From Megasphaera hominis (GTDB taxonomy: Bacteria; Bacillota; Negativicutes; Veillonellales; Megasphaeraceae): a stretch of 14,793 bases of DNA. Every line of letters begins with the position of its first letter. Position 1 is the first letter of the stretch. The notes beneath the pieces were generated by a model. It saw nothing but the letters and a program-made list of their open reading frames with translations, ran no database searches and was not told where the DNA came from. The stretch lies in NCBI RefSeq assembly GCF_014269395.1, contig NZ_JACOGK010000047.1, positions 1 to 14,793 of the forward strand. The letters are read 5' to 3'. This document shows positions 11,162-14,793 of the stretch, piece after piece. The translations under genes and the position numbers were made by a program.

Positions 11162-11190
11162 TTGCCAATACTATACCAGGCATATATACT
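11162..11190 (+). promoter_or_regulatory. Promoter of the nitrogenase-like operon
   Basis: -35 TTGCCA (11162-11167), spacer of exactly 17 nt, -10 TATACT (11185-11190). Start of transcription would be near 11197, leaving a 5' UTR of about 45 nt. It is close to the vegetative consensus. No -24/-12 sigma-54 site, as used by classical nif genes, is seen. Confidence 0.75.
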
Positions 11191-11241: not shown

Positions 11242-12591
11242 ATGATTTACGAAAACGAAATCAGACCGCGTGTCCTCATCCCTAAGGTTAGTCCTGCGGG
11301 CGCGGAAACAGACATTGGTCATGCTTCCTTCCCGGAGCCTTTCCACATCGGGCTCCAGTACAGCTCGCCGGCCCGGGGCCACTGGACCATTGCCCATTCC
11401 CCCATGCTCATTCCGGAGTGCCACGAAATCTACGTGTGCTATGCCTGCTGCCTCCACGGCGTCGTCCTTTCAGCGGACGAAGTGCCTGACGGCGCCGGAC
11501 GCTTCTCCATGGTGACCCTGACGAACGAAAACATTCTCAAGGGGAACCTGGAAGAAATGATGATCGACGGTATTAGCGACATCATCGACCACCTGCCTGA
11601 ACGGCCACGCTGCGTCGAAGGCTTTACGAGCTGCATGCAGCATTTCCTGCACATCGACCTGAAGCTGGTTTACGGGACGCTGCGCAAAAAATACCCGGAT
11701 ATCGATTTTATCGACGGCTATATGATCCCGACGCTGCAGCACCGCTTTTCGCCAGACGTCTTGGGACGGCGGCAGCTGACGCGGGCTATACAAAAACAGC
11801 CCCGGAAAAAGGCTGTCAATTTCGTCGTCAATTATTTCCCTGTCGACCCGGAATGCGAGCTCGTCACGATGCTGCAGGCTGGAGGCTACACGATTCACGA
11901 CTTTGCCGCCTGCCCGACGTACGACGAGTACAAAGCCATGGGTGAATCAATCGCCAACATTTATTTTCATGAAAATGCCCGGCCGGCCGCTCTTGATATG
12001 GAAAAGCGGCTGGAGCAAACGCCCTTATATATCCCTTACGCCTTTTGCTACGACGAAATCCGTGCCCACCTGCAAGAAGCGGCAGACTGCTTACAGCTGT
12101 CCATGCCTGACACGGACGCCTATGAAGCGCGCTGCGAAGCGGCCCTGGAACGGCTGCACGACGAAGTCGGTAACACGCACATGTCCATCGACTACACGGC
12201 AACACCGCGGCCCTTGAATCTGGCACGGCTGCTTCTTACGCACGGCTTCAACGTCTACGCCGTCTATTTGGATACGGTTCTTGCCGACGATAAGGACGAT
12301 TTCTATTTTCTCCAAGAGCACTATCCGGAGTTGCAGCTGCGCTCGACGATGCACTTCAAACGCAGCCTCCTGCCGCGGGACGACACGCGCCGCTACGGCA
12401 AGGTCCTGGCCATTGGCCAGATGGCTGCGTACTTTACGGATTCTAACTATTTCGTCAATATCGTAGAAAACAGCGGCCTTTACGGCTACACCGGTCTCTT
12501 GAAACTCATCAGCCTGACCTCAGAAGCCTTTAAAGAAGAAAAGGATATGCGCCGCATCGTCCAAATTAAAGCTTGGGGGTGTCACGGTTGA
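11242..12591 (+). CDS. NifD-like nitrogenase component 1-type oxidoreductase subunit, function unknown
   Basis: First gene of a three-gene operon; 449 aa, cytoplasmic. It resembles the nitrogenase component-1 superfamily (NifD/NifK/BchN/BchB type) in fold-level patterns: a Cys-rich N-terminal region, EGFTSCMQHFLHID (126-139) in the place of the usual Cys-x-x-x-(I/V)GDD block, a middle domain, and a C-terminal loop SGLYGYTG (411-418) like the NifD SGPYAGFKG loop. Cysteines cluster at 60, 66, 69 and 70 (C-x5-C-x2-CC), plus 124 and 131; these could hold an Fe-S cluster. By my eye alignment the cofactor ligands of true NifD are not kept: the Cys275 position falls near His243-Glu244 and the His442 position falls at Asn406. 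It should pair with the next gene's product and receive electrons from the NifH-like protein. The ATG has AAAGGA 6 nt upstream. The substrate is unknown; a nitrogenase is unlikely. Confidence 0.82.
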   Translation: MIYENEIRPRVLIPKVSPAGAETDIGHASFPEPFHIGLQYSSPARGHWTIAHSPMLIPECHEIYVCYACCLHGVVLSADEVPDGAGRFSMVTLTNENILKGNLEEMMIDGISDIIDHLPERPRCVEGFTSCMQHFLHIDLKLVYGTLRKKYPDIDFIDGYMIPTLQHRFSPDVLGRRQLTRAIQKQPRKKAVNFVVNYFPVDPECELVTMLQAGGYTIHDFAACPTYDEYKAMGESIANIYFHENARPAALDMEKRLEQTPLYIPYAFCYDEIRAHLQEAADCLQLSMPDTDAYEARCEAALERLHDEVGNTHMSIDYTATPRPLNLARLLLTHGFNVYAVYLDTVLADDKDDFYFLQEHYPELQLRSTMHFKRSLLPRDDTRRYGKVLAIGQMAAYFTDSNYFVNIVENSGLYGYTGLLKLISLTSEAFKEEKDMRRIVQIKAWGCHG

Positions 12592-13817
12592 AACAAGCAC
12601 AACAGGTTCTCTCGACATATGCCGTCGATGTTTTCGGCATCGCCTCAGCGCTCTATGAGCTGGGCGGTTTGATCATTATGCACGATGCATCGGGCTGCAA
12701 TTCTACATATAATACACACGATGAACCGCGCTGGTATGATTTGCCGGCTATGGTCTATATTTCCGGCCTCAACGAAGCCGATACGATTTACGGCAACGAC
12801 CAGCGCCTCATCGATAATATTGCCGAAGTCGTCGACGCCGGTAAGCCGACGTTCATCGCCATTGGCGGCAGTCCCATGCCTAATGCCATCGGCACGGACT
12901 ATAAGGCTATCGCCCAAATGGCATCGCGCCGTACAGGCATTCCTGCCTTCGGCTTCCGCACAGACGGCATCCACAGCTATCTCCCCGGCGCGGGCGCAGC
13001 CTTTTTGACGTACGCCAAAGAATTCCTTCAGGCACCGCAAAAGAAACCGCAACAGCCGGCCCGGCGGGTTAATCTCCTGGGGCTGACGCCCCTTGATTTT
13101 TCCGTCGTCGGCAACGCTACGACCTTAAAAAACCTGATTACGGAAAACGGCTTCATCCTGCAGAGCTCCTGGGCTATGGGCGAATCGCCGGAAGGCCTGG
13201 CCCAGGCCGCTAATGCAGACGTGAACGCCGTCGTCTCCGCTACGGGTTTTTACCTGGCCCAATATATGCAGGAAGCCTACGGCATTCCCTATGTCTGCGG
13301 CTTGCCCATGGGCAAAAAGGGCACAGCCGGCTGGCTCCAGGCCCTGCGTGACGGCGACACGTCGTATCTGACAGGCCTTACAGGCAAAGAAAAGCCTGCG
13401 CGCCTCAACCGGGCCCTGACCAAACTGGACGCCTGGAAGGTAGAACAGGTCTACGACGACACGCCGTGCGACGTGCTCCTCATTAACGGGGAGCCCTTAC
13501 AGCTCCTGTCTATGCGCCAGTTCCTGGCTGACGAATACGGGCTTCACGACGTGCGCCTCCTGTGCCCCTTAGCCGACGCACCGGAGCCATTAACTACGCA
13601 AATAGAAACGGCCTGCTCAGAAGAGGCCATTCGCCGCGAATGCCGCAAAGCACGCCGCATCATTGCCGACCCCATTTATGCCCGGCTCCTGCCTGGCGAA
13701 GAAAAGAAATTCCTTTCCTTCCCGCACGAAGCCTATTCGGGCCGTCATTACCGGGACGACCTGCCCCTCTTCGTCGGCCCTGACGCGCGGAAATGGCTGG
13801 ACGAAAAAGGATTTTAA
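12588..13817 (+). CDS. NifK-like nitrogenase component 1-type oxidoreductase subunit, function unknown
   Basis: Second subunit of the presumed component 1; 409 aa from the chosen TTG start. The TTG at 12588 overlaps the preceding stop as TTGA and lies 7 nt after GGGGGTG, so translation is probably coupled. In-frame TTG at 12573 and GTG at 12579 are less likely because they sit in or next to that ribosome site. Family signs: HDASGCNSTY (32-41) as in the NifK/BchB Cys region, ISGLNEADTIYGNDQRLI (58-75) like the NifK GGLxN helix, and a C-terminal DPIYARLLP...PHEAYSGRHY (361-388) as in component-1 proteins. Cys37 is the only N-terminal cysteine; the usual STTC...GDD position reads GGSPMPNAIGTD (93-104), with no Cys. 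A full P-cluster is thus unlikely; a [4Fe-4S] cluster shared with the first subunit is a reasonable guess. Confidence 0.82.
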   Translation: MKQAQQVLSTYAVDVFGIASALYELGGLIIMHDASGCNSTYNTHDEPRWYDLPAMVYISGLNEADTIYGNDQRLIDNIAEVVDAGKPTFIAIGGSPMPNAIGTDYKAIAQMASRRTGIPAFGFRTDGIHSYLPGAGAAFLTYAKEFLQAPQKKPQQPARRVNLLGLTPLDFSVVGNATTLKNLITENGFILQSSWAMGESPEGLAQAANADVNAVVSATGFYLAQYMQEAYGIPYVCGLPMGKKGTAGWLQALRDGDTSYLTGLTGKEKPARLNRALTKLDAWKVEQVYDDTPCDVLLINGEPLQLLSMRQFLADEYGLHDVRLLCPLADAPEPLTTQIETACSEEAIRRECRKARRIIADPIYARLLPGEEKKFLSFPHEAYSGRHYRDDLPLFVGPDARKWLDEKGF

Positions 13818-13827
13818 GGAGGATACT

Positions 13828-14580
13828 ATGAGAAAAATTGCAATATATGGCAAAGGCGGGATTGGCAAATCGACGACCTCGGCCAATATTTCCGCAGCCC
13901 TGGCCCTAATGGGCAAAAAAGTGATCCAGATCGGCTGCGACCCTAAGGCCGACTCCACCCTCAACCTGCTGCACGGTGAACCGGTCATGCCGGTCATGGA
14001 CTATTACCGCGAATTCGATGACGAACCGGATTTCGAACACGTCGGCCGCGAAGGCTTCGGCGGTGTCTTCTGCATCGAAACAGGCGGGCCTACACCGGGC
14101 CTTGGCTGTGCCGGCCGCGGCATTATCGCCACCTTCGACCTCCTGGAAGATCTGGAGGTCTTCGACCGCATCAACCCGGACGTCGTCATTTACGACGTCT
14201 TAGGCGACGTCGTCTGCGGCGGCTTTGCGGCGCCTATCCGGGAAGGCTACGCCAATGAAGTCTTCATCGTCACGTCCGGCGAAAAGATGTCCCTCTACGC
14301 AGCCAACAACATCAGCCGGGCTGTAGAAAATTTCCAGGACCGGGGCTACGCCCAGGTCAAGGGGCTCATCCTCAACCGCCGCAACATTGAAGACGAACGG
14401 GAAAAGGTAGATGAGTTTGCTGCTAAACGCGGTCTCCCTGTCATTGCTGATATTCCCCGCAGCAAGGAAATTCAGCGCTGTGAAGAACTGGGCATGACCG
14501 TCGTCGAAGATAATCCCGACGCACCGCTCAGCCGGATCTATATCCAGCTGGCCAAGGATTTGCTAAAAGAAGAAGGCTAA
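13828..14580 (+). CDS. NifH-like iron-sulfur ATPase (nitrogenase reductase-like)
   Basis: Third operon gene, 250 aa, member of the NifH/BchL/CfbC family. It should form a homodimer that bridges one [4Fe-4S] cluster and passes single electrons to the component-1 pair at the cost of ATP. P-loop GKGGIGKST (8-16); GCDPKADST at 36-44; cluster ligands Cys94 in GLGCAGRGI (91-99) and Cys130 in YDVLGDVVCGGFA (122-134); Arg97 matches the NifH Arg that is ADP-ribosylated in some bacteria. All essential residues are kept, so it is likely active. It is shorter than classical NifH (about 290 aa) because the C-terminal extension is missing. The ATG at 13828 lies 5 nt after AAGGAGG, 10 nt past the previous stop. 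A longer in-frame reading from 13663 is rejected because it overlaps the upstream gene. No nifB, nifE or nifN lies in the window. Confidence 0.93.
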   Translation: MRKIAIYGKGGIGKSTTSANISAALALMGKKVIQIGCDPKADSTLNLLHGEPVMPVMDYYREFDDEPDFEHVGREGFGGVFCIETGGPTPGLGCAGRGIIATFDLLEDLEVFDRINPDVVIYDVLGDVVCGGFAAPIREGYANEVFIVTSGEKMSLYAANNISRAVENFQDRGYAQVKGLILNRRNIEDEREKVDEFAAKRGLPVIADIPRSKEIQRCEELGMTVVEDNPDAPLSRIYIQLAKDLLKEEG

Positions 14581-14658: not shown

Positions 14659-14686
14659 CTGCCACCGATATCCGGTGGCAGTTTTT
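14659..14686 (+). terminator. Rho-independent terminator after the nitrogenase-like operon
   Basis: CTGCCACCG (14659-14667) pairs perfectly with CGGTGGCAG (14673-14681) around ATATC, followed by TTTTT on the plus strand. It would stop transcription leaving the nitrogenase-like operon before it runs antisense into the transposase. It lies 78 nt after the operon and may belong to the IS end rather than to the operon. On the minus strand it lacks a T-run. Confidence 0.8.
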
Positions 14687-14793
14687 ATGCTGCCACGTAA
14701 TAGTTATTGTGCTTTTCCATCGGGGTTACTACACCCAGTTTTCTCTGTAAACGCTTAGTATTGTAATAGCCAATGTAATCTTCAATCATTGCA
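14685..14793 (-). CDS. IS3-family transposase, C-terminal fragment (partial)
   Basis: The minus strand reads 35 codons to a TAA at 14687-14685. The product contains EDYIGYYNTKRLQRKLG and VVTPMEKHN, the typical C-terminal end of IS3-family OrfB transposases of the DDE type (Y-I-x-Y-Y-N-x-x-R-x-Q...TPxE). The catalytic residues lie beyond the right edge, so whether the enzyme is intact cannot be seen. The T-tract of the neighbouring terminator overlaps its stop codon. Confidence 0.9.
   Translation of the reverse strand, partial: AMIEDYIGYYNTKRLQRKLGVVTPMEKHNNYYVAA

Follow-up and report, generated by a model that had tools for sequence, protein, structure and literature searches.

A nitrogenase-like D-K-H operon of Megasphaera hominis and a probable HydG-independent route to the [FeFe]-hydrogenase H-cluster

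The window analysed here, a stretch of 14,793 nucleotides from Megasphaera hominis, carries on its forward strand three consecutive genes of the nitrogenase superfamily, which we call D, K and H and which are the subject of this work. D (11242-12591; 449 amino acids, ATG start) and K (12588-13817; 409 amino acids, TTG start) encode nitrogenase component-1-like subunits, and H (13828-14580; 250 amino acids, ATG start) encodes an Fe-protein-like ATPase, assigned by a PF00142 match of 303 bits and by its place in a tree. The TTG start of K and the stop codon of D share the letters TTGA, and the spacer between K and H is exactly 10 nt (GGAGGATACT); the tight operon described in an earlier note on this DNA was thus verified from the coordinates. 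The same note placed the genes under one promoter. What stands of this is a possible sigma-70 type site upstream of D (TTGCCA-17-TATACT, 11162-11190, forward strand) agreeing with the consensus at 10/12 positions; that it is the one promoter does not follow from a scan that used only the consensus and returned 6 sites in the region, against 2.5 ± 1.4 in shuffled sequences. Comparison with relatives ties the operon to [FeFe]-hydrogenases: D is linked to, and co-occurs with, genes for the maturation of these enzymes, in genomes from which the maturase HydG is absent.

The component-1 fold is present in both larger proteins; the earlier note had set a domain check on these two, and both matched. 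Curated NCBIfam scores, in turn, place the set outside the characterized families. For NifHDK, H reached 316.2 (394.35 required) and K reached 45.7 against the NifD model (653.55 required) and 27.1 against the NifK model (427.3 required); D matched no NCBIfam model at E up to 1, and the curated cut-off of NifE was not reached either. The scores of the protochlorophyllide and chlorophyllide reductases (DPOR/COR) were missed by H (BchL, 209.7 versus 345.15; BchX, 205 versus 331.2) and by K (BchB, 46.3 versus 490.35, with BchN, BchY and BchZ lower still), as were those of CfbCD (H, 316.6 versus 402; K, 20.3 versus 268.4; D, none). We agree with the earlier note in so far as these nitrogenase-like genes form a set of their own, which the curated scores keep apart from NifHDK, DPOR/COR and CfbCD and which is probably a new reductase.

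The cysteines suggest what kind of cofactor the D-K complex may hold. In D, the proposed cluster ligands are Cys66 (11437-11439), kept in at least 90% of 64 proteins, and Cys70 (11449-11451) and Cys131 (11632-11634), both kept in 64/64; Cys447, near the C-terminus (12580-12582), is also conserved. The sole invariant cysteine of K is Cys37 (12696-12698), kept in 54/54 proteins. H has the P-loop GKGGIGKST and two conserved cluster cysteines, Cys94 (14107-14109) and Cys130 (14215-14217); all these codons are on the forward strand. In profile alignments, D aligns with NifE across positions 83-421, Cys131 falls on a NifE cysteine, and Cys37 of K falls on a NifN cysteine in a weak match (22.7 bits). 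The position of the iron-molybdenum (FeMo) cofactor cysteine (NifD VQCHRS, NifE VCSKAM) is not Cys in D or K. Taking the VQCHRS/VCSKAM cysteine as ligand of the FeMo cofactor and the NifE and NifN cysteines as cluster ligands, the two alignments suggest one [4Fe-4S] cluster at the D-K subunit interface; D-K thus probably holds one such cluster through three cysteines of D and one of K, in a NifEN-like manner, and no FeMo-type cofactor.

The neighbourhoods of relatives were collected by a pattern scan with one genome per species, which gave 14 loci (in what follows, loci are labelled L and genomes G). The D homologs that back the role discussed here are 41-72% identical to the window's D in these loci (63-72% in the named Megasphaera loci) and 38-74% identical over all aligned proteins. 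We call a D gene core when it scores at least 475 bits in the A1 search, the next matches having at most 340 bits; this gap was visible earlier, but the label was fixed only after the HydG result was known. The core D shares its fetched locus with HydE, HydF and/or Hyp genes in 29/32 core genomes, as judged by BLAST to named representatives, the exceptions being G007, G008 and G210. The representatives of HydE, HydF, HypF, HypD and HypE (from L004 and L009) score over their NCBIfam cut-offs, a second nitrogenase-like set (H2, D2 and K2) was matched by Pfam, and the other locus genes were named by BLAST to the representatives. HypC and a TM1266-like "iron-only hydrogenase system regulator" (PF21699) also lie within these loci. 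In Megasphaera and its kin, the genes of the operon follow the order TM1266-like regulator, H2, D2, K2, HypF, HypC, HypD, HypE, D, K, H, HydF, with H-D-K in place of D-K-H in some; in L006 and L009 the order is HydE, D, K, H, D2, K2, HypF, HypC, HypD, HypE. E. pyruvativorans (G007) carries HydA, HydE, HydF, the TM1266 regulator, H2, D2, K2, HypF, HypC, HypD and HypE contiguously and its D-K-H separately, standing alone elsewhere, which is the same arrangement as in the window. Chance linkage was rejected because the same neighbours recur across diverged loci. In relatives, the three genes that the earlier note described as a compact operon do not form a system by themselves; they make up a single module within a larger locus for [FeFe]-hydrogenase maturation. 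The gene order D-K-H, emphasized in that note, holds in the branch of Megasphaera, E. pyruvativorans and Lachnospiraceae but does not define the system: other branches have H-D-K, or two D-K pairs with just one H found in the locus (L006, L009, L054 and L056-L059).

The second set was seen in 26/32 core genomes, with D2 found by search in 16 + 7 of them and by locus in G006, G007 and G014; the contigs of G008, G011 and G012 end too early to show it, and the D2 search found none in G137, G210 and G296. D2 and K2 likewise have no Cys at the FeMo-cofactor position in profile alignments. In the last three genomes (loci L053, L055 and L051), H-D-K adjoins an importer, of FecBCD type as judged from the sequences, and stands beside HydE in two of the three. 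Some loci have fused or broken genes: in L009 (13623-16088), D2 and probably K2 form one 821-residue protein with two PF00148 stretches; L011 (1285-4533) has a frame of 1082 amino acids beginning with D; in L055 (12266-13321), the ATPase of the importer adjoining H-D-K is fused to a PF21699 hydrogenase-regulator domain; and in L013 (Anaeroglobus geminatus), frame breaks split D, H and HydF, and also HydE elsewhere in the genome, which points to poor assembly or decay. An AspA-like lyase (PF00206) adjoins HydF in L049, and AspA near hydF has been reported (PMC11736057).

These loci were compared with the distribution of HydG across genomes. HydG is a textbook-essential maturase and the accepted maker of the CO and CN ligands of the H-cluster; it makes them either within an Fe(CO)2(CN) synthon or in free diatomic form (PMC9431212; PMC6212873). 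We searched for it at the TIGR03955 cut-off in overlapping sets of 14, 61 and 274 genomes (341 in all), taking PF02906 as the [FeFe]-hydrogenase domain and PF00374 as the [NiFe]-hydrogenase large subunit. For HydE, HydF, HypD and PF00374, a hand-picked subset of 80 of the 341 genomes was searched: the 32 core genomes, 5 with a distant D, 15 with a weak or no HydG score and with cross-hits, 20 HydG-negative genomes without cross-hits and 8 HydG-positive ones. All 32 core genomes have the [FeFe]-hydrogenase domain and none has HydG over the TIGR03955 cut-off. HydE is over its cut-off in 30/32 and HydF in 31/32, G013 having both genes split by frame breaks; HydE and HydF are both present in the 8/8 HydG-positive controls. 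In the order of G004 (61 genomes; two matches of about 25 bits were left out of the D count), the 44 genomes with PF02906 divide into 28 with HydG and 16 with D, with zero overlap and zero remainder (Fisher 2e-12, a value that assumes independent genomes, which they are not). In the sample of 274 Clostridia, 259 genomes have the domain, 171 have HydG by tally (170 by list, the difference being probably G197) and 10 have core D, HydG being found in 0/10 of the latter versus about 65% of the domain-bearing genomes. When all D-like matches of at least 198 bits in Clostridia are taken, HydG is absent in 11/15. In three proteins (P0281, P0283 and P0284, one of them named Megasphaera cerevisiae) the [FeFe]-hydrogenase is fused to a phosphate acetyltransferase (PF02906 + PF01515), G003, G004 and G010 have open frames of 826 amino acids tied to this fusion by length only, and the HydA of G028 has 484 amino acids with the start chosen.

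The Hyp genes of these loci are mostly found where their usual client is missing. HypD is present in 29/32 core genomes, 25 of which have no PF00374 match; in comparison, HypD occurs in 7 of the 48 other genomes tested, and all 7 have PF00374. Because PF00374 is absent there, a [NiFe]-hydrogenase role of the Hyp genes was rejected for 25/29 hosts; counted over all core genomes, PF00374 is absent in 28/32. The HypD search found none in G137, G210 and G296. The key residues are kept: the C-terminal PRIC of HypE in 29/30 rows (the remaining row stops where its locus ends; the rows count one gene twice and include two from second, [NiFe]-type sets), Cys2 of HypC in 27/28 rows (the remaining one is cut by a contig end) and the N-terminal Cys28, Cys56 and Cys59 of HypD in 29/29 rows. 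With these cysteines conserved, the Hyp proteins should be capable of iron-cyanide synthesis. In [NiFe]-hydrogenase maturation, the CN made by HypE and HypF originates from carbamoyl phosphate, and Fe(CO)(CN)2 is carried on a scaffold of HypC and HypD (PMC6802093).

The H proteins were placed in a midpoint-rooted tree of 58 rows, which includes one MarH and one BchL (on a very long branch) and has no row for CfbC, BchX or NflH. A starred branch (97/93) sets apart the 48 hydrogenase-linked H and H2 rows, among them the window's H, and another (100/99) splits these 48 together with five importer-linked rows from NifH, MarH and BchL. The window's H and eight Megasphaera-type H rows together make a starred set of 9. 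H of the D-K-H loci nests within the H2 side of this tree, which makes a swap or duplication of the Fe protein likely; the rows were labelled H or H2 after the closest component-1 gene, a choice that is arbitrary for L006, L009, L054 and L056-L059. The importer-linked sister branch includes a locus of the Sporomusa termitida plasmid pSPTER (L100, 13879-32562), where H-D-K stands beside a siderophore TonB receptor, an iron ABC importer and an esterase-like gene. This locus suggests a nitrogenase-like reduction of an imported iron chelate, and the ancestral job may therefore have been the reduction of an iron complex.

The same observations feed the best-surviving alternative, in which D-K-H and H2-D2-K2 would be iron-complex reductases of siderophore or metallophore type that feed iron to hydrogenase assembly, with HydG replaced by some other, unseen protein. 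Besides the Sporomusa plasmid locus, it is consistent with the FecBCD-type importers beside the sister H branch (L060, L061, L068 and L069) and with the importer retained in the three core loci L051, L053 and L055; it leaves unexplained, however, both the absence of HydG in all 32 core genomes and the presence of HypD in 29 of them, 25 without a [NiFe]-hydrogenase match, and we consider it unlikely. The substitution of HydG by a ThiH-like radical S-adenosylmethionine (SAM) protein, with the nitrogenase-like genes acting elsewhere, is much less probable still. A ThiH-sized match of 188-207 bits to the HydG model, which we take from its length and score to be ThiH, occurs in 14/16 core genomes of the order of G004, but HydG and a ThiH-sized gene co-occur in many HydG-positive genomes of that order. 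Moreover, 13 core genomes (G007, G008, G009, G014, G031, G032, G126, G137, G189, G203, G226, G268 and G296) have only HydE-like scores (E about 1e-14 to 4e-24) or none with the HydG model; no ThiH-type stand-in is therefore visible in them and the idea was rejected for these 13. That D-K-H is of a known type, serving to fix nitrogen, to reduce chlorophyll precursors, to make coenzyme F430 or to reduce methylthio-alkanes, is barely credible: superfamily and fold are shared, but the first three roles are rejected on the missed Nif, Bch and Cfb cut-offs and the lack of a FeMo-cofactor Cys in D and K, a MarHDK identity is disfavoured by the starred branch that separates H from MarH (one row) as it does from NifH and BchL, and the gene context is that of hydrogenase maturation.

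We consider it very likely that D-K-H takes part in H-cluster maturation, as its homologs' gene neighbourhoods argue, and probable that it does so in a pathway independent of HydG; the use of Hyp cyanide for the H-cluster is likely as well, if a little less so. The full scheme that we somewhat favour is a second route to the H-cluster, in which cyanide from HypFCDE and two nitrogenase-like reductases, making or installing CO and reducing iron, would yield an Fe(CO)(CN) unit to be passed on to HydE and HydF, with no need for HydG, a radical SAM enzyme. HypF and HypE would make cyanide from carbamoyl phosphate and HypC-HypD would attach it to iron, which is known Hyp chemistry, here in most hosts without a [NiFe]-hydrogenase client. 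Relative to HydG, this would leave a gap in the source of two CO per iron and in the correct ligand ratio, to which the operons would add two low-potential, ATP-driven reductases. H2-D2-K2, encoded beside HypFCDE, would give the reducing power to complete the iron complex, its likeliest job being CO formation, e.g., from CO2 or from a carbamoyl or formyl group. D-K-H would then perform the last reduction or ligand remodelling to give the Fe(CO)2(CN)-type unit otherwise delivered by HydG; we put it at the HydE end because it stays, beside HydE in 2/3 cases, where HypD and D2 are absent. Finally, HydE and HydF would turn this unit into the [2Fe] cluster, which they would then place in HydA. What exactly the two reductases catalyse is a tentative part of the scheme, with odds somewhat below even, and it is by inference that we say which complex makes CO and from which substrate.

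Several observations weigh against this HydG-independent route. The role is assigned from homologs, the HydG, HydE, HydF, Hyp and HydA counts being those of relatives and not of the window's host, and the statistics overstate independence because genomes with core D are clustered by lineage. Of the 91-92 HydG-less Clostridia with PF02906 (G197 being doubtful), most, 81-82, carry no core D, and the distant D-like genes (198-340 bits, 5 genomes) are mostly accompanied by HydG (4/5), the fifth genome, G209, having neither HydG nor HydE. G032 has no HydE match over the cut-off. PF00374 exceeds its cut-off of 25.8 in four core genomes (G006, G009, G011 and G012), with matches of 46-49 bits that cover the first 69 of 508 positions only; three of the four have a second HypD. 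In G137, G210 and G296, with a FecBCD-type importer and neither HypD nor a D2 match, the scheme leaves the source of Fe-CN unexplained. G167, G228 and G326 have HydE, HydF and the domain with neither HydG nor D, and G251 is similar with a partial HydF; these four genomes may be incomplete or may use a further solution, and G167 has a weak HydG-model match (6.5e-32), possibly a fragment. Among the 15 cross-hit genomes, HydE is over its cut-off in eight (G133, G142, G167, G197, G228, G251, G283 and G326) and HydF in five (G125, G142, G167, G228 and G326); G142 has both and no domain match, and G133 and G283 have HydE without HydF. Neither HydE nor HydF was over its cut-off in any of the 20 sampled HydG-negative, domain-bearing Clostridia without cross-hits (e.g., G070, G076, G079, G080 and G083), so that HydG absence alone does not predict D. 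Six open reading frames beside HydE or HydF in G167, G228, G251, G283 and G326 were scanned: five are ordinary and one, in G228, is B12-type radical SAM-like. Its locus (L074, 9047-13298) has a TM1266-like gene, HydE, HydF and then this cobalamin-type protein (97.8 bits, cut-off 700), and is possibly a third solution to the lack of HydG.

The rest of the window holds gyrA, two genes of the acetyl-CoA hydrolase/transferase family, an EF-G-like gene, an M20 peptidase and an M18 aminopeptidase; among the window's genes, to which the search was confined with no genome-wide counterpart, there is no nifB, nifE or nifN, as the earlier note had said. About 100 bp downstream of H, on the reverse strand (14685-14792), lies what we take by eye to be the C-terminus of an IS3-type transposase, which runs off the window end; an insertion here may be a sign that a rearranged operon has its edge at this place. 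A plasmid location of the operon was rejected, the plasmid collection having no near match.

To our knowledge, the CO source of [NiFe]-hydrogenases in hosts without HypX is unsettled. Two independent CO routes are mentioned in PMC6802093. For [FeFe]-hydrogenases, a review states that HydE, HydF and HydG are the minimal machinery and occur in every microorganism with such an enzyme (PMC6212873). A 2022 survey left HydG undetected in 5/8 acetogenic Clostridium species, with no straightforward explanation; it suggests atypical HydG-like proteins or free diatomics, and the word "nitrogenase" appears in it once (PMC9431212). Among the open-access matches listed, which leave subscription papers and preprint servers largely uncovered, no report places nitrogenase-like genes in hydrogenase maturation. 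The 32 genomes with an [FeFe]-hydrogenase domain and core D and without HydG share a gene set that could replace HydG, which looks like an undescribed route to the iron-carbonyl-cyanide active site. If this is true, enzymes of the nitrogenase superfamily build the active site of a hydrogenase and may be a long-missing anaerobic source of CO; the locus provides a defined list of genes for deletion or expression. The hydrogenase of Megasphaera elsdenii is a classic enzyme, with which electrochemical work on [FeFe]-hydrogenases began in 1997 (PMC7820892). HydG is absent from every Megasphaera genome named in our loci (L001, L003, L004, L005 and L010), M. elsdenii itself not having been identified among the genomes searched, and the maturation of its hydrogenase therefore needs a fresh look.

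Among known systems, BchLNB differs from D-K-H in several ways: the D-K-H scores lie far under the curated cut-offs, the D-K-H hosts are fermentative anaerobes, and the proposed bridging cluster ligand, an Asp in BchB, is a Cys in K. With NifEN it shares the alignment of D and the counterparts of Cys131 and, weakly, of Cys37, and it differs in that the later NifE cysteine (VCSKAM) is not Cys in D. The FecBCD-linked H-D-K sets of Clostridia and Sporomusa have the closest H in the tree and K proteins 35-38% identical to the reference K proteins, but their D is just 28-30% identical to the D of L014, their neighbours are importer or siderophore genes, and HydG is present in 4/5 of the distant-D genomes examined. 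HypCDEF of [NiFe]-hydrogenase maturation has HypF, HypC, HypD and HypE with the key cysteines in common with our loci; the difference is that 25/29 HypD-bearing core genomes have no large-subunit match and that Hyp stands beside Hyd and nitrogenase-like genes. Finally, the HydE-HydF-HydG system shares HydE, HydF, the TM1266-like regulator and, in some loci, HydA, all linked to the D set, as well as the AspA-like lyase beside HydF in L049; it differs by HydG, which is absent in 32/32 core genomes, mostly with HypFCDE and two nitrogenase-like sets in its place.

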